Shown here: in pieces, positions 19,908 to 31,018 of the stretch | Position numbering within the stretch: the stretch's first letter is position 1 | How the letters are laid out: each line of letters opens with the position of its first letter | NCBI GenBank assembly: GCA_036504895.1 | Contig: DASXUJ010000001.1 | Location: forward strand, 1 to 64,000 | Direction of reading: 5' to 3' | Origin: Syntrophorhabdaceae bacterium | GTDB taxonomy: Bacteria > Desulfobacterota > Syntrophorhabdia > Syntrophorhabdales > Syntrophorhabdaceae | Length of the DNA stretch: 64,000 nucleotides | Notes under the pieces: generated by a model | The model's input: only the letters and a program-made list of their open reading frames with translations | Database searches by the model: none | What the model was told of the DNA's origin: nothing | Made by a program: the position numbers and the translations under genes

Positions 19908-20840
19908 ATGACCGACAATGTAAATGATATTGCCGTATCGCTTCAGGGCCTTCGCCGGACCTTCGGGGATTTTGTTGCCGTCGATTCACTCGACCTGGAA
20001 GTCCGGAAGGGAGAGGTCTTCGGCTTTCTCGGGCCTAACGGGGCGGGAAAATCTACCACCATCCGGATGCTCTGCGGCCTTCTTATGCCTACAGGCGGAA
20101 AAGGCTCGGTGGGAGGGTTCGACATCATAAAAGAACCAGAATCCATCAAGTCCATCGTCGGTTATATGTCCCAGAAGTTCTCCCTCTATGACGATCTCAC
20201 GGTGGAGGAGAACATCGATTTTTTCGGCGGGATCTACAACGTTCCAAAGGAGAGGAAGAAGGAGCGGAAGGAATGGGTGCTGCGCATGGCCGGTCTCGAA
20301 GAGAGGACCGGGAGCCTCGCAAGGACTCTCGCAGGGGGCTTCAAGCAGCGCCTCGCCCTGGGGTGCGCCATCCTCCACGAGCCGCCCATCATCTTCCTCG
20401 ATGAGCCCACATCGGGAGTAGACCCGGTATCGCGCAGGAACTTCTGGCATCTCATCGACGAGCTCTCCCAAGGGGGCGCTACGGTCTTCGTTACCACCCA
20501 TTACATGGATGAGGCGGATTACTGCGACCGCCTTGCCCTGATCTACAGGGGTAAGATCATTGCCGAAGGGACCCCCGCGGAGCTGAGGCACGAGCACATG
20601 ACACATCACGTCCTGGAGGTGGAAACGGACCGTGTGGTGGATGCCCTGGGCGTGCTCGCGAAGGCGGGAATTGATGCGGCCATCTTCGGCGCGGCCCTCC
20701 ACGTAACCGTAGAGCGTGCGGACGAAGACGGGCAACGCCTCGTTGCGCTCCTGCAGGGTTCAGGGATCAGGGTCGCACGGTGCGAACGGATCGCCCCCTC
20801 CCTGGAGGATGTTTTTGTCGCTTTGATAGAGGTCGCCTGA
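19908..20840 (+). CDS. ABC transporter ATPase (YbhF C-terminal half equivalent)
   Basis: 310 residues. Walker A is GPNGAGKST, the signature is degenerate (LAGGFKQ), and Walker B is IIFLDEPTSGVDP. The D-loop and H-loop regions (VFVTTHYMDEADYC) are intact. It pairs with the ATPase encoded at 18802-19749, which it matches along its length, to energise the two permeases downstream. Its stop overlaps the start of the first permease (TGATG). Family and partner assignments are secure from order. The exported substrate is unknown; E. coli homologues have been linked to drug and cation export. Confidence 0.9.
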   Translation: MTDNVNDIAVSLQGLRRTFGDFVAVDSLDLEVRKGEVFGFLGPNGAGKSTTIRMLCGLLMPTGGKGSVGGFDIIKEPESIKSIVGYMSQKFSLYDDLTVEENIDFFGGIYNVPKERKKERKEWVLRMAGLEERTGSLARTLAGGFKQRLALGCAILHEPPIIFLDEPTSGVDPVSRRNFWHLIDELSQGGATVFVTTHYMDEADYCDRLALIYRGKIIAEGTPAELRHEHMTHHVLEVETDRVVDALGVLAKAGIDAAIFGAALHVTVERADEDGQRLVALLQGSGIRVARCERIAPSLEDVFVALIEVA

Positions 20841-21949
20841 TGAAGCTCGTGCGGATCAAGGCCGTTGCGCGAAAGGAGATCATCCAGATACGCCGCGACC
20901 GCCTGAGTCTTGCCATGGGTTTTCTCATGCCCATTATCCTCCTCTTCATTTACGGCTTCGCAGTAAGTTTCGACGTGGAGAAGATCGACACCGTAGTCTA
21001 TGACATGGACAAGGGGAGCTTGAGCAGAGAATTGGTGAATGAGTTTTCCCAATCCGGATATTTTACCGTATTGGCCTATGTGGACCGGTACGAGGAGCTG
21101 GATTACTGGCTCGATCGTGGAAAGGCTAAGGTCGCCATCGCTATACCTGTCGATTTTTCGAAGCGTGTACGGGCGGGAAAGGATGCCGCCATCGAGGTGA
21201 TCCTCGACGGGAGCAATTCGAACACCGCCTCCATCGCGCAGGGATATATCCTTTCCATCTCCGAGGCCTTTCCGCGAAGGCTCGGGGGAGGGAAAATTAC
21301 CCCCTTCGTCGATTCGAGGAGCAGAGTCTGGTACAATACGGAGCTTAAGTCGCGGAATTTTATCATTCCCGGGCTTATCGCCGTGATCATGGCGGTGATC
21401 GTGGCTCTCCTTACCTCCCTCACCGTGGCCAGGGAATGGGACCGGGGCACCATGGAGCAGCTCATATCCACTCCCGTCAAGCCAGCCGAGCTGGTCATAG
21501 GCAAGCTCATCCCTTATTTCATAATAGGGTTAATCGATACGGTCCTCACGATTCTCATGAGTACCCTCCTTTTTCACGTCCCCTTACGGGGCAGTCTTCC
21601 CCTTCTGCTCACCCTCTCCTCCATCTTCCTCTTCGGCGGCTTAAGCACGGGAATCCTCATCTCCATTGTCGCGAAGAGCCAGGTGATCGCAAGCCAAATG
21701 GCCATGCTCAACTCTTTCCTGCCCGCCTTCCTCTTATCGGGTTTCATCTTCAGCATTTCGAATATGCCGGCTCCCCTCCAGGTCGTGACCTACATCATCC
21801 CCGCGCGGTACTTCGTCACCATCCTGAAAGGGATTTTTCTGAAAGGCGTGCCTTTCAATTTCCTCCTCTGGGAGACTACGCTCCTCGCGGGTTACGGCCT
21901 CGCCGTCTTTATCCTCGCCATAAAGAAGCTCAAAAAGAGGATCGACTGA
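20840..21949 (+). CDS. ABC-2 type permease, YbhS-like
   Basis: 369 residues from the ATG that overlaps the ATPase stop. A membrane segment near 28-45 is followed by a large periplasmic domain (about 50-175). Five more membrane segments fill the C-terminal half (about 177-360), including the ABC-2 motif region VAREWDRGTMEQLISTPVK. This is the usual half-permease layout with one plus five segments. It would heterodimerise with the next gene product. A longer frame starting at 20780 is internal to the ATPase gene and was rejected. Confidence 0.9.
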   Translation: MKLVRIKAVARKEIIQIRRDRLSLAMGFLMPIILLFIYGFAVSFDVEKIDTVVYDMDKGSLSRELVNEFSQSGYFTVLAYVDRYEELDYWLDRGKAKVAIAIPVDFSKRVRAGKDAAIEVILDGSNSNTASIAQGYILSISEAFPRRLGGGKITPFVDSRSRVWYNTELKSRNFIIPGLIAVIMAVIVALLTSLTVAREWDRGTMEQLISTPVKPAELVIGKLIPYFIIGLIDTVLTILMSTLLFHVPLRGSLPLLLTLSSIFLFGGLSTGILISIVAKSQVIASQMAMLNSFLPAFLLSGFIFSISNMPAPLQVVTYIIPARYFVTILKGIFLKGVPFNFLLWETTLLAGYGLAVFILAIKKLKKRID

Positions 21950-21950
21950 T

Positions 21951-23066
21951 ATGGGAGAGAGGACAATACAGCTCATCATAAAGGAATTCATACAGACCTT
22001 CCGGGATAAGCGGATGATCTTCTTTCTCTTTGTAACCCCCGTCATCCAGCTCGTCCTCTTCGGCTACGTGGCGACCTTCGACGTCAACTCCATCCGTACC
22101 GCCTTCTACGATCTCGATAAATCCCCCCAGAGCAGGGAGCTGGAGGGTCGGCTCAGGGAATCGGGTTATTTCCGCATCGACTACCGACCCGGCTCCCCCG
22201 AGGAGCTGCGGGAGCTCGTGGACAGGGGTAAGGTCCTCTGCGCGGTCCAGGTGAATACCAATTTCGCCAAGGACCTGAAACGGGGAATCCCCACCCGGGT
22301 ACAGGTGATCGTGGACGGCACGGACTCGAACACCGCCATGATCGCCATGGGTTATATCAATACGGTAATCGCGAAGTACAGCAAGGAAATGGCGCCCCAG
22401 GGGAGTATCGTGCCTCACCTCTCAAAAATAGAGTTCCGTACGAGGGTCTGGTACAACCCCGATTTACGGAGCAGGAACTATATGGTGCCGGGGGTAATCG
22501 CCCTGATCATCATGCTTACCTGCCTCCTCCTCACTTCCATGGCCGTGGTGAGGGAAAGGGAGGTGGGCACCATGGAACAGCTCATGGTGACGCCCATAAA
22601 GCCCCTCGAGCTGATTCTCGGAAAGACCGTGCCCTTTGCCGCCATCGGCTTCTTCGACATGGCCCTCGTCACGGCCGTCGGCGTCTTCTGGTTCGGCATA
22701 CCCATAAAAGGCGCCTTCCTCTTCCTTTTCCTCTGCACCGCTGTCTACCTCCTGCCTGTACTCGGGATAGGCCTTTACATATCTACCATATCGAAGACCC
22801 AGCAGCAGGCGATGATGGCCACTTTTTTCTTCTTCCAGCCCGCCATTCTCCTCTCCGGCTTCGCTACCCCAATAGAGAACATGCCCATGGTCTTCCAATA
22901 CATTACATATCTGAACCCCTTGCGCTATTTTCTCGTCATCGTACGGGGCATTTTCCTGAAAGGCGTGGGGATTACCGTACTCTGGCCCGAAGTGACGGCC
23001 CTCCTTGCTCTGGGTACGGTGATCCTGACCTTAGGCGCCCTCAGGTTTAAGAAGAGGCTGGCCTGA
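21951..23066 (+). CDS. ABC-2 type permease, YbhR-like
   Basis: 371 residues, starting one base after the previous stop. It has the same one-plus-five membrane layout as its partner. The first segment is near 20-40, there is a periplasmic domain with NPDLRSRNYMVPG at its end, and the motif VVREREVGTMEQLMVTPIK marks the second segment. It completes the efflux operon repressor-tolC-adaptor-ATPase-ATPase-permease-permease. The gene ends ten bases before the convergent stop of a small secreted protein gene. Confidence 0.9.
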   Translation: MGERTIQLIIKEFIQTFRDKRMIFFLFVTPVIQLVLFGYVATFDVNSIRTAFYDLDKSPQSRELEGRLRESGYFRIDYRPGSPEELRELVDRGKVLCAVQVNTNFAKDLKRGIPTRVQVIVDGTDSNTAMIAMGYINTVIAKYSKEMAPQGSIVPHLSKIEFRTRVWYNPDLRSRNYMVPGVIALIIMLTCLLLTSMAVVREREVGTMEQLMVTPIKPLELILGKTVPFAAIGFFDMALVTAVGVFWFGIPIKGAFLFLFLCTAVYLLPVLGIGLYISTISKTQQQAMMATFFFFQPAILLSGFATPIENMPMVFQYITYLNPLRYFLVIVRGIFLKGVGITVLWPEVTALLALGTVILTLGALRFKKRLA

Positions 23067-23795: not shown

Positions 23796-23900
23796 AAGGG
23801 CAACCCTTGAATCGAGGCCCGTTCTCTGGTATTCTCTGTCTACCTGACGCACAAGAAAGGCGCGTACCATAATGAACCCCATCACGCGAGGAGAGATTGA

Positions 23901-25376
23901 ATGGCAACCCTTACTGTAGTTGCCGCCTGTGAGCCCGGACCCGTTTTCGTGGAGACCCTCCGGGATTTTGCTGCATCGGGACTCGTGGAGGCGGCTGTCC
24001 TGGTCAATGCGGGTGCTTCGGTCCCGACCGATCTGTCTGTGCCCTGCATCCATCTTGCCGGCTCGGTCTTCTCAGGAGACATACTCAGCGCGATCCTCGA
24101 AGCGATCCATACGGAATCCGTTCTTTTTATGATAGGAGGGATGAGTATCTCCATAAGCCCCGAGGCTTTGGAGCGGATGGAAAGGGCCCTCAGGGCCTCC
24201 CGGGCGGGCCTTCTTTATTCCGATTTTTATGACGAGAGGGAAGGGGTCAAGACCCTTCATCCCCTCATCGATTACCAAAAGGGTAGTCTGCGCGATGATT
24301 TCTCATTCGGGCCTCTCATGCTCTTCTCCATGCCCGCGGTTCGGGCAGTCCTCGCGAAGCACGGCCCCATTCCCGAAGTCGATTATGCGGCCCTTTACGA
24401 CCTGCGCCTGAGGGTATCCGTCGATTATCCCCTATTCCATCTCAGCGAGCCTCTCTATTCGATATCAGGCTCGGAGGGACCTTCGGCGGGCGAGGCGATC
24501 TTTGCATATGTGGATCCGCGAAACCGGGCGGTCCAGGAGGAGATGGAGACGGTGTGTACGGCGCACCTCAAGAATACAGGCGCCTTCATTCCCCCGGAGA
24601 GACTTAAGAAGGCAGGGCACCAGACGGGCGCCTTCCCTGTGGAGGCCTCAATAATCATTCCCGTGAAGAACAGGAGCGCCACCATCGCCGAGGCAGTGGA
24701 AAGCGCCCTCTCCCAGGAGACCGCATTCCCCTTCAATGTGATAGTAGTAGACAACCACTCGACGGACGGGACCACGGAGACCCTCTCCGGTCTTGCCCGG
24801 CGCGATTCCCGCCTTTGCCACATTATTCCTGCGAGGACCGACCTCGGCATAGGCGGATGCTGGAACGAAGCCCTTTTATCGGAATCCTGCGGCCGTTACG
24901 CCGTGCAGCTCGATTCCGACGATCTTTACTCCACGCGCTCTTCATTGCAGCGCATAGTCGATACCCTGAATGAGGGAGATTACGCCATGGTGGTGGGCTC
25001 CTATACGATCACGGATTTCAACTTAAAGCCAGTCGCCCCGGGGCTCATCGACCACAGGGAATGGACGGAAGCCAACGGCCACAACAACGCCCTGAGGATA
25101 AACGGCCTGGGCGCGCCGAGGGCCTTCAACGCGAGCATCATGAGGGCGATCGGGTTCCTCAACGTGAGCTACGGAGAAGACTATGCGGCCGCCTTAAGGA
25201 TCAGCCGGGAATACAGGATAGGCCGCATTTACGAGAGCCTTTACCTCTGCAGGAGGTGGTCCGGAAATACGGATGCCGACCTTTCCCTTGAAGAAACAAA
25301 TCGGAATAATCTCTTCAAAGACCGGGTAAGGACGGAAGAGTTGCGCGCCCGGATAAGGCGCAACAAGAGGCGATGA
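23901..25376 (+). CDS. Glycosyltransferase with GT2 domain and degenerate N-terminal GT-A-like half
   Basis: 491 residues. The C-terminal half (about 250-480) is a family 2 glycosyltransferase: [32 protein letters not shown] and the metal-binding LDSDD motif are all present. The N-terminal half (1-240) also looks like a GT-A fold with LLYSDFYDE in the DxD position but lacks the opening motif, so it may be a non-catalytic duplicate. No membrane segment is visible. The stop codon directly abuts the start of a DUF4922 gene, implying coupled expression. The acceptor and donor are unknown. Confidence 0.8.
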
Positions 25377-26399
25377 ATGGATTTCATCGATAACCCCCTG
25401 CCCGGAATGCTCTCTCCCGTGGTATGTGCTGATTTCGATGGAGAAGGCCCCCTTTCTTTGGACCGTCTCTGCCGGGACCTCGTGGAGGCACAAAAGGCGA
25501 GCTGGCCCGACTATCGGCAGGGCTGCGACTCTTTAGACGGGGTGAAGGTCCGCCCGATCCCCTGCACCGGATTTTCCGTGCGGGTGCAGTACAATCCCCG
25601 AAGGATAAAGAGTGCCCTGGCAAAGGTGGGAACGAAGGATGTGGGCGCGAGGCCCTGTTTTCTTTGCCCCGCCAATCTGCCCGAGGCGCAAAGGGGAATT
25701 CTCTACCGTAAGGATTACCTCATCCTCTGCAACCCCATGCCCGTCTTCCCCTGCCATTTCACGGTAAGTAATATTAAACACCGGTCCCAGACAGTAGAGG
25801 AGCATATCGGCTCTTTCCTCGCCCTAACCGCCGACCTCGGCAACCGATGGACGGTACTCTACAACGGCCCGAGATGTGGCGCCTCCGCCCCCGACCATCT
25901 CCATTTCCAGATCATTCCTTCCGGTAATTTGCCGGTGGAAGAGGAGATCGGCGAGGAGGGAAGGCTGACGTCAGTCGCCGCAAAAGACGGCATCCAGGTG
26001 AAAATGGCCAAAAATATGGGGCGGGAGGTCATAATACTGGAAGGAAAAGAACCTCATGCTTTGGGTGACGCCTTCAATGCCATTGTGGAGGCCCTGAAAG
26101 CGGCCATCGGCGAGAGTCAGGAGCCCATGATGAGCCTCGTGAGCTGGTATGGAGAAGGCGTATTTCGCCTCATACTCTTCCCGAGGGCAAAACACCGTCC
26201 CGCAAGCTTCTTTGCCGAAGGAGACGCCAGGATAGCGGTGAGCCCCGCAGTGATAGAGATGGGCGGCGTTCTGGTCACCCCCATGGAAGCGGATTTCCAC
26301 CGCCTTGACAGACAGAGCGTTGAAAATATCTATAACGAAGTATCATTGGACGGGGGCACCACAAAGGCGGTTTTCAGGAATCTGGTACTCCCAAGTTAA
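25377..26399 (+). CDS. DUF4922 protein, HIT/GalT-like nucleotide phosphorylase or transferase
   Basis: 340 residues. The motif H174-L-H176-F-Q178 in APDHLHFQII is the HxHxQ active-site signature of the GalT/Ap4A phosphorylase/GDP-galactose phosphorylase branch of the HIT superfamily. Two cysteines (C94, C97 in RPCFLCPAN) could form half of a structural zinc site. The sequence matches the DUF4922 type known from anaerobes. The predicted chemistry is nucleotidyl or phosphoryl transfer on a nucleotide or sugar nucleotide with a His-nucleotidyl intermediate. It starts immediately after the glycosyltransferase stop with no spacer, so the two probably act in one pathway. The specific substrate is unknown. 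Confidence 0.75.
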   Translation: MDFIDNPLPGMLSPVVCADFDGEGPLSLDRLCRDLVEAQKASWPDYRQGCDSLDGVKVRPIPCTGFSVRVQYNPRRIKSALAKVGTKDVGARPCFLCPANLPEAQRGILYRKDYLILCNPMPVFPCHFTVSNIKHRSQTVEEHIGSFLALTADLGNRWTVLYNGPRCGASAPDHLHFQIIPSGNLPVEEEIGEEGRLTSVAAKDGIQVKMAKNMGREVIILEGKEPHALGDAFNAIVEALKAAIGESQEPMMSLVSWYGEGVFRLILFPRAKHRPASFFAEGDARIAVSPAVIEMGGVLVTPMEADFHRLDRQSVENIYNEVSLDGGTTKAVFRNLVLPS

Positions 26400-28786: not shown

Positions 28787-29665
28787 TCAATATTCAAGCC
28801 ATGAATCGGAATAAACCGTCTGGCCGAGAAGGATTCTCGCAGTCTTTACATATCCCTTTTCTTCATCCGAGACGGTTGCCGTGTCGATAGCCTCACCGTC
28901 CATAACCCTATATACGAGGGCCTCCAGGTCGGGCCTTTCCCCCCGCGCAATAGCCTGCAATTGTCCGTCGAAGGCGTTGACTATGGCGGCATGAAGGCCG
29001 TATCTGCGCAGCATCAGGAGGTAGGTCCGGTCGAGGATTCCCCTTAAGCGCATGGGCGCCCCGTGGGAGATGTTCGAAAGGCCCGCCATCGATCTGCACT
29101 GGGGAAAAAGTTCGGGCGCCATTATGATGAAGTCGGTGCAGCCCCCTACGCGGAGCTGCTGGGTATTGACGGGAAGGACGAGGGGGTCGAGCCATATGTC
29201 CTCTTCCGGTATCCCGTATTCAGCCGCCTTGGCAACGATCATGGCCGCGAGCAAGCCTCTTTCGTTTCCGTCCCTCGGAAGCCCCTCCGTGCCGATGGTC
29301 ATGCCGATAAAACGCGCGCCGTAGCGTTTCGCGAGGGGCATGAGGGCCTCCATCCTCTCGGGCCTCGCGGAGATCGAGTTGATGAGGGCCTTGCCCTTGC
29401 AGACACGAAGTCCGGCTTCTATGGCTTCCACACTCGTGGTGTCGAGGGACAGGGGCAGGTCCGTTACTTCCTGGACGTTTTTGACCACCCATTCCATGAG
29501 CCGCGGCCCCTCTTTCCTCAGGGGGCCGAGGTTGATATCGAGCATGTCCATCCCTGCCTCCGCCTCGGCGACGGCCCTTGCCCGTATGGGCGCGGGATCG
29601 AGGTCGGCGAGGGCCTTGCCGATCCTTGTGGACATGATATTCAGGTTTTCGCCGATGAGGATCAT
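28787..29665 (-). CDS. acsE: Methyltetrahydrofolate:corrinoid/iron-sulfur protein methyltransferase
   Basis: 292 residues, pterin-binding TIM barrel. It moves the methyl group from methyl-tetrahydrofolate to the cobalt of the corrinoid/iron-sulfur protein in the Wood-Ljungdahl pathway. The opening ILIGENLNIMSTRIGKAL, the DMLDINLGP and LSLDTTSVEAIEAGL segments and the NGxSxG-equivalent GLSNISHGAP loop match AcsE (MeTr) of acetogens and sulfate reducers. Length is normal (about 260-300). The start follows AAGGGAAGAG. It is the last pathway gene of the operon, nine bases after acsC. Confidence 0.92.
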   Translation of the reverse strand: MILIGENLNIMSTRIGKALADLDPAPIRARAVAEAEAGMDMLDINLGPLRKEGPRLMEWVVKNVQEVTDLPLSLDTTSVEAIEAGLRVCKGKALINSISARPERMEALMPLAKRYGARFIGMTIGTEGLPRDGNERGLLAAMIVAKAAEYGIPEEDIWLDPLVLPVNTQQLRVGGCTDFIIMAPELFPQCRSMAGLSNISHGAPMRLRGILDRTYLLMLRRYGLHAAIVNAFDGQLQAIARGERPDLEALVYRVMDGEAIDTATVSDEEKGYVKTARILLGQTVYSDSWLEY

Positions 29666-29674
29666 TCTCTTCCC

Positions 29675-31018
29675 TTATTCCCCCTTCCACAGCTTAAGGT
29701 AGGCGGGGATATGGGCGGCTTCCCTGGGCCCCACCAGGATTTCCCAGCCCGGAAGCTCTTCTTCGAGGTCGCCCAGGATCACGGCCGCGTAGCCGGGGAT
29801 GATCAATTTCCTGTGGTTCACTTTTTCGGCGACGCCACTTTTCTTGATAAAGCCTCCTATGAGGTCGCCCACGAACTTTCCCGCGGCCCAGGCCGTCATG
29901 ACGGAGAGCCCCTCCGTGTCCATGACCGCAAGCCAGGCGGGCACTCTGGAATTTTCTATCTCACCGCTTACGATGAAATAGGTGAGGGAGAAATTGCAGG
30001 TAAGGAGGATGGGGGACGATTCGTCCGGATTATTTATGGGATAGATGCCTTCCTGAGTGGTCATGGGGCGCTGGGGATCGGTATAGATGTTAAGCCGCTG
30101 AAGGAGGAGAGGGAAGATCGACTCACCCTGAAAATCGCCCATTACGATGAGGCCCGCATACTTCGCCACGAAAGAGGAGGCGATAAGGGTCTGCCTCATC
30201 AGGTCGTCCGCCATCTCGCATGGAAAGGTGATGGTGGGGAAGCCCAGGGGCTTCACCTTCGAGATGAGCGCCGCGCGACGTATCATGACCTGTTCTTCAA
30301 ATGCCTTCTTTACCGTACGGGTCGAAGTGTCGATCACGAGGTCCTTGAGTCCCATGGCAGTGAGCTTTTCCGTGAGTTCCATGACCTCATCGATACCATC
30401 CCCCTTTACCGCCAGCGGGCACCCTGTTTCTTTTGCCAAAGAGGCATAGGCATCGAGATTACCCTTCGTCGCCGCGTAAATGAGGGGCCTTTTCGCCTTT
30501 GAGCGGGCAAGGGCTTCCGCCATGATGGAAGGGTCTGAGGTCATAATAATCATACTATATGGTTCGGCACATGCCTTGTCCACCAGGCTTGAGAACCGCT
30601 CCCTGTTGCCTGTCTCCTTCAGCGCCAGGAGTTCGGGCCTGAGAATGGTGCCGACCCGCTCATACTGATAGAGGGAGAGGGAAGAGATGCGCCTCCCGAC
30701 CTCAACGTCGTCCATGGCGTCTGTAATGAGCACCCCAAGGCCAGGCTTATTGAAAAAGGTCTTTTCGTGGCGAAAGAGCACTGTCTCGCCGCCGACCTTC
30801 ACCTCATATTCACCCGTCCCGATACTCAGGGACCGTATGGGAGGAGCGCTCGCCTCTGAAAGCTGCTCCCTCGCCTCATCGCTGACCGTCGGGCATAAGC
30901 TCAGCTCACTTTTCCCCGCCGCAAGGGCCATGGCAAAGGCAAGGCAAGTAGGGAACTTGCACTGTCCGCAGTTCGTCTTAGGCAGAAGTTTGAAAATCTG
31001 TATACCGGTTAGCGCCAT
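29675..31018 (-). CDS. acsC: Corrinoid/iron-sulfur protein large subunit
   Basis: 447 residues. The N-terminal domain has the 4Fe-4S motif TNCGQCKFPTCLAFA plus a further Cys in LCP near 42, which reductively activates the cobalt. A TIM-barrel domain (about 95-320) and a C-terminal B12-binding domain follow. The protein carries the methyl group between AcsE and acetyl-CoA synthase. Length matches bacterial AcsC (about 445). AAGGAGAG precedes the start. A 26-bp run of GACTAAA-type repeats (31058-31083) lies in the 68-bp gap upstream. Confidence 0.94.
   Translation of the reverse strand: MALTGIQIFKLLPKTNCGQCKFPTCLAFAMALAAGKSELSLCPTVSDEAREQLSEASAPPIRSLSIGTGEYEVKVGGETVLFRHEKTFFNKPGLGVLITDAMDDVEVGRRISSLSLYQYERVGTILRPELLALKETGNRERFSSLVDKACAEPYSMIIMTSDPSIMAEALARSKAKRPLIYAATKGNLDAYASLAKETGCPLAVKGDGIDEVMELTEKLTAMGLKDLVIDTSTRTVKKAFEEQVMIRRAALISKVKPLGFPTITFPCEMADDLMRQTLIASSFVAKYAGLIVMGDFQGESIFPLLLQRLNIYTDPQRPMTTQEGIYPINNPDESSPILLTCNFSLTYFIVSGEIENSRVPAWLAVMDTEGLSVMTAWAAGKFVGDLIGGFIKKSGVAEKVNHRKLIIPGYAAVILGDLEEELPGWEILVGPREAAHIPAYLKLWKGE

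Follow-up and report, generated by a model that had tools for sequence, protein, structure and literature searches.

A conserved glycosyltransferase–DUF4922 gene pair from a Syntrophorhabdaceae bacterium with a proposed role in peptidoglycan-sugar salvage in place of NagZ and AnmK

The DNA analyzed here (the window) is a stretch of 64,000 nucleotides from a Syntrophorhabdaceae bacterium (contig DASXUJ010000001.1, positions 1 to 64,000). The two genes under study lie on its plus strand, with the following features.

23889–23896, plus strand: Shine-Dalgarno-like purine stretch before the glycosyltransferase start (read off the sequence).
23901–25376, plus strand: GT2-family glycosyltransferase (GT), 491 aa (ORF list, Pfam, model and profile comparison).
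25377–26399, plus strand: DUF4922 protein, 340 aa, a predicted GalT/Ap4A-phosphorylase-like two-domain nucleotidyltransferase or phosphorylase (ORF, Pfam and model).
25656–25667, plus strand: C94xxC97 of the DUF4922 protein, invariant (family alignment).
25896–25910, plus strand: H174-x-H176-x-Q178 motif of the DUF4922 protein (family alignment).

The TGA stop codon of the GT gene is followed directly, with no gap, by the ATG start codon of the DUF4922 gene, an arrangement in keeping with translational coupling, and the window's genome was found to carry a single copy of each gene. Just upstream of the pair (19908–23066) lies an apparent ABC exporter made up of an ATPase and two permeases, whose genes are not kept beside the pair in relatives. 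Wood-Ljungdahl-type genes occupy the minus strand at 28787–31018, where a pterin-binding methyltransferase (28787–29665) and a CO dehydrogenase/acetyl-CoA synthase delta-type subunit with an Fe-S motif (29675–31018) are encoded.

The glycosyltransferase belongs to the GT2 family by its match to Glycos_transf_2 (PF00535) on residues 250–376 (E 4e-21; 76 bits against a Pfam gathering score of 23.3) and by a DxD motif lying within an invariant LDSDD. This metal-binding motif is located in the C-terminal half (about residues 245–470), an active-looking GT-A domain, and the N-terminal half (about residues 1–215) is a degenerate GT-A domain without DxD, in which FMIGG stands at the place of LDSDD. 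A confident AlphaFold model (mean pLDDT 90) gives the N-terminal half a Rossmann-type series of strands and helices, and profile-to-profile alignment matches the two halves to each other with an E-value of 3e-5. The top structural match of the model is the chondroitin polymerase K4CP; the likeness to K4CP and other double GT-A enzymes consists in the tandem pair of GT-A domains, whereas the first domain of the window's enzyme has no DxD and the enzyme has DUF4922 as a fixed partner in salvage operons. Structure comparison shows that the second domain resembles the UDP-GlcNAc enzymes TarP/TarS. Identity across phyla is 43–62%, which is unusually high and appears unlike the behavior of variable surface-polysaccharide glycosyltransferases.

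In the partner protein, residues 35–179 match DUF4922 (PF16269) with an E-value of 3e-50 (170 bits against a gathering score of 23.6), and HxHxQ (174–178) and CxxC (C94/C97), at least 97% invariant among 89 homologues, rank with the most conserved residues of the family. Its model (pLDDT 88) has the full two-domain fold of the Ap4A phosphorylase Apa2 (Foldseek E 1e-9), followed by matches to ADP-glucose phosphorylase and GalT, with 2h39 also among the matches; the two-domain fold and the HxHxQ nucleophile motif place it in the GalT/HIT superfamily. In the GalT/Ap4A-phosphorylase superfamily it is the central histidine of HxHxQ that accepts the NMP, and when the motif ends in Gln, transfer to phosphate or a sugar phosphate is favored over transfer to water. 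H176 is proposed as the candidate nucleophile carrying NMP. The CxxC pair is presumably the counterpart of that in GalT, and C94/C97 with a downstream His are proposed, by analogy with GalT, as a candidate structural metal site. The protein differs from Apa2, GalT and ADP-glucose phosphorylase, with which it shares fold and active-site motif, in having only about 11–15% identity to them, a Pfam family match to DUF4922 only and another gene context. It scores 12 bits against the Ap4A phosphorylase family PF19327 (gathering score 23.1), PDB sequence searches with the protein and its alignment returned chance matches only, mainly to designed proteins, and no Pfam match up to E 10 was found to the GDP-hexose phosphorylase (VTC2/GDPGP1) family. 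VTC2 and GDPGP1 are likewise HxHxQ phosphorylases, but they are eukaryotic and have no GT partner, whereas this DUF4922 protein is bacterial and has one. DUF4922 and the GDP-L-galactose/GDP-D-glucose phosphorylases (VTC2, GDPGP1) are placed in one CDD superfamily (PMC9871823), and two plant papers name DUF4922 solely as the superfamily to which relatives of GDP-L-galactose phosphorylase belong. The literature searched, with most subscription journals outside the search, gave no function for bacterial DUF4922 and no link between it and bacterial peptidoglycan recycling. These results agree with a preliminary description of the locus, which had noted that the two genes abut stop-to-start (the ORF coordinates are exact), that the GT has a second, degenerate GT-A half (now seen in the model, the half-to-half profile match and the FMIGG in place of DxD), and that the HxHxQ and CxxC motifs, here near-invariant, put the DUF4922 protein among nucleotide and sugar-nucleotide transferases and phosphorylases.

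About 85,000 species genomes were scanned and gave 354 relatives; 80 of these were fetched, 75 of them with enough upstream sequence. The GT gene adjoins DUF4922 on the same strand at 59 of the 75, most often with an overlap of a few bases, and at nine the two are fused in one ORF of 795–841 aa (Smithella and other Syntrophales-type genomes, with L161:8576–10978 as one of the Smithella type); one fusion run through hmmscan contains both Pfam domains. At the other seven loci the GT is neither adjacent nor fused; four genomes lacking a local GT were sampled, and three of them carry it elsewhere. The pair is spread over Deltaproteobacteria, Bacteroidota/Ignavibacteria and one planctomycete. These adjacency and fusion counts show that the coupling is real and old. 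The preliminary description had proposed functional coupling of the two genes and suggested a survey of their conservation; this survey has now been run, and DUF4922 is indeed kept beside the GT, by adjacency in dozens of genomes and by fusion in nine. When 60 related genomes were searched for DUF4922, full-length matches were obtained in most of the window's family, with the GT directly upstream in essentially all. In the f3 genomes (G038, G040, G042) and in G050 the GT is present together with SpoIID, MurU and AmgK homologues (see below) and DUF4922 was not found, so that some lineages can do without DUF4922 or have replaced it.

Upstream of the pair, many relatives encode first a SpoIID/LytB-domain protein, then a nucleotidyltransferase and then an aminoglycoside-phosphotransferase-like kinase; these genes run on the same strand into GT–DUF4922 or diverge from it (head-to-head). 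An AmpG-family muropeptide importer (TIGR00901, E 4e-52) lies between SpoIID and the nucleotidyltransferase in Syntrophales-type clusters, and some clusters also contain an AmiA-like (PF07313) protein and an M15 peptidase. The best PDB match of the nucleotidyltransferase is 4y7t, which we take to be P. putida MurU, and NCBIfam MurU is within its top two families; the best NCBIfam match of the kinase is AmgK (E 4e-21). Both score under the NCBIfam equivalog cut-offs and are called MurU-like and AmgK-like here, orthology being unproven by these scores. In the window's genome the SpoIID, MurU and AmgK homologues lie together, with AmpG (498 bits against a cut-off of 350), on contig C87, unlinked to the pair. 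The SpoIID proteins start directly at the conserved domain, nearly all members are without a hydrophobic N-terminus, and the glutamate of SxEM is invariant. Since no signal peptide or membrane segment was seen in them, the SpoIID proteins of the module are probably cytosolic, and the module apart from AmpG is likely to be so as well. They share the SpoIID/LytB domain and conserved glutamate with the SpoIID lytic transglycosylases of B. subtilis and Waddlia, but the Waddlia protein has a signal peptide (PMC6635528), whereas none was seen in those of the module, which are co-encoded with MurU/AmgK.

Two variants of this gene set were also observed. In G050, from another family, SpoIID, AmpG, MurU, AmgK and GT form one cluster (contig C17, L100); an apparent AmpG–MurU fusion there (L100:6797–8629) was rejected, since its translation shows that the ORF continues into an overlapping frame. 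In DUF4922-bearing genomes of Bacteroidota type, the AmgK family search gave, instead of a clear AmgK, an AmgK-like kinase fused to a RapZ C-terminal domain (L215:1333–2784, L217:1027–2448, L219:1027–2436; the domain was confirmed as PF22740 in L215 and L219). The fusion hints that a RapZ-type sensor controls an amino-sugar kinase.

This gene context bears on the function suggested in the preliminary description, namely that the two enzymes may produce or salvage an unusual sugar nucleotide for immediate use; a surface glycan would be one possible destination. A GT2 enzyme and a GalT-like fold would suit such a function, but the genes that regularly accompany the pair serve peptidoglycan salvage and are not polysaccharide genes, and the GT is conserved across phyla to an unusually high degree. 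The SpoIID/LytB, AmpG, MurU and AmgK context and the reciprocal pattern of NagZ described next point to ordinary peptidoglycan sugars, and the unusual sugar nucleotide has become highly improbable.

NagZ splits GlcNAc from anhMurNAc. In the Pseudomonas scheme AmgK and MurU act once AnmK has opened the anhydro sugar (PMC5371407). Among 60 related genomes, mostly MAGs, an intact GH3 (NagZ-type) gene was found in 0 of the 42 with GT and/or DUF4922 and in 16 of the 18 without, the glucosaminidase search covering the GH3 (NagZ-type) family; one genome counted in this comparison (G031) has a contig that ends upstream of DUF4922, the GT itself being unseen. AnmK was found in two of 44 relatives, G007 and G012, both of which are without DUF4922, MurU, SpoIID and GT; as AnmK is absent also from NagZ-bearing members of the phylum, its absence alone is weak evidence. 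AmpG occurs in most genomes of the family whether or not the module is present, and the distribution of NagA did not discriminate between module-bearing and other genomes.

The ampG locus itself differs between these genomes. In G007 and G012, which have no module, it consists of an HD gene, an intact nagZ and ampG; in six module-bearing relatives the HD gene is followed by ampG at a distance of 32–415 bases and nagZ is missing; and in the window's genome (G000) and its congeners G001 and G002 a NagZ-derived ORF beside ampG aligns with just the initial part of the GH3 profile, without the KHFPGHGDTxxDSH and LILTDA segments. This pattern is what replacement followed by decay looks like. In the window's genome the NagZ-derived ORF (L099:850–2196, contig C87) has 449 aa and adjoins ampG; since its reading frame is preserved in three genomes of the genus, a non-catalytic function is possible. 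The reciprocity of NagZ and the module could also reflect shared ancestry only, the two being sorted by lineage and not functional substitutes, and most module-bearing genomes do come from one family and most NagZ genomes from others. This explanation is nevertheless improbable: G007 and G012 lie inside the window's family, G012 shares its genus with the module-bearing G020 and has the opposite NagZ/module state, G050 shows the same switch in another family, and in module-bearing genomes the same locus has a decayed NagZ or none at all. Farther afield, 27 other Deltaproteobacteria-type genomes with the pair yielded no GH3 gene (0/27) and no AnmK above the cut-off (0/27). GH3 genes are frequent in Bacteroidota-type genomes and the planctomycete with the pair, and AnmK occurs in two of them, so the exclusion of NagZ is not universal.

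We propose that GT2–DUF4922 is part of a cytosolic peptidoglycan-sugar salvage module (SpoIID/LytB, AmpG, MurU, AmgK) that replaces the usual NagZ/AnmK entry, and give this reading as a whole, chemistry included, a probability of about 0.5. That the pair works in peptidoglycan salvage is in itself quite likely; its exact chemistry is tentative. From the conservation, the fusions, the operon partners, the fold and the loss of NagZ we infer the following reactions, directions and substrates. AmpG would import GlcNAc-(anhydro)MurNAc fragments, and the signal-less SpoIID would open or trim the anhydro-muramyl end, for which it is a candidate because the SpoIID domain can hydrolyse denuded glycan (PMC6635528). 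The GT2 enzyme would possibly work in the breakdown direction, in reverse (GlcNAc-MurNAc + NDP -> NDP-GlcNAc + MurNAc); since the GT occurs where the disaccharide-splitting NagZ is missing, this would be the simplest joint function. DUF4922, through an NMP-His176 intermediate, would turn NDP-GlcNAc + Pi into NDP + GlcNAc-1-P, pulling the GT reaction and returning NDP, or would alternatively exchange NDP-GlcNAc with a sugar-1-P. The common intermediate of a GT and such a phosphorylase would be a nucleotide sugar (and its nucleotide), and the two proteins jointly would amount to a disaccharide phosphorylase whose nucleotide is recycled. The MurNAc would be converted to UDP-MurNAc by AmgK and MurU. 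Reverse GT2 catalysis is uphill unless coupled, and sucrose synthase is a precedent for a glycosyltransferase used in reverse in cells. The f3 genomes and G050, with GT and without DUF4922, fit the model if NDP-GlcNAc is used directly there.

Two other assignments within salvage were weighed. The pair might run forward in the same recycling module, the GT assembling a short muro-saccharide or a glycosylated intermediate from NDP-GlcNAc (or UDP-MurNAc) while DUF4922 balances or regenerates the sugar nucleotide; the same gene context applies, the forward direction is the favorable one for NDP-sugar glycosyltransferases, and the likeness to TarP/TarS suits it. We consider it rather unlikely, because the loss of NagZ wherever the GT is present goes unexplained and the disaccharide would still need splitting. 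DUF4922 might alternatively be a housekeeping or repair phosphorylase that clears wrong or surplus nucleotide sugars or dinucleotides (e.g. Ap4A) arising from promiscuity of AmgK/MurU, a role like the one suggested for GDP-glucose phosphorylase in animals. Apa2 as its top structural match, a weak Pfam Ap4A_phos_N signal in 8 of 17 members and its lack in some lineages that keep the GT are consistent with this role, but fusion to the GT and constant adjacency imply intermediates shared with the GT more than with MurU/AmgK, and the repair role is unlikely.

With the pair read as part of the salvage module, comparison can be made with the anabolic recycling of Pseudomonas (NagZ, AnmK, MupP, AmgK, MurU; PMC5371407): AmpG import, an AmgK-like anomeric kinase and a MurU-like uridylyltransferase leading to UDP-MurNAc are shared, whereas NagZ and AnmK, which belong to the AmgK–MurU route, were not found; in their place stand a SpoIID/LytB protein that is probably cytosolic, the two-half GT2 and DUF4922. 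Recycling through AmgK/MurU is already known, and what differs here is its front end. A possible but doubtful outcome is that several phyla have a third type of peptidoglycan recycling, one free of NagZ and AnmK and built on a nucleotide-dependent two-enzyme disaccharide phosphorylase (a backward GT and a GalT-like phosphorylase regenerating the nucleotide). For bacteria with AmpG and no AnmK, such as Tannerella forsythia, the fate of GlcNAc-anhMurNAc/anhMurNAc has been stated as still to explore (PMC7670621), and the present work offers a short list of named candidate genes for AnmK-free use of GlcNAc-anhMurNAc. The chemical prediction is precise, and the fused GT–DUF4922 version, a single protein, would be easy to assay. 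In some Gram-negatives, fosfomycin tolerance and the induction of beta-lactamase are under the control of peptidoglycan recycling (PMC5371407). The pair probably belongs to a hitherto undescribed pathway through which many bacteria recover the sugars of their own cell walls.
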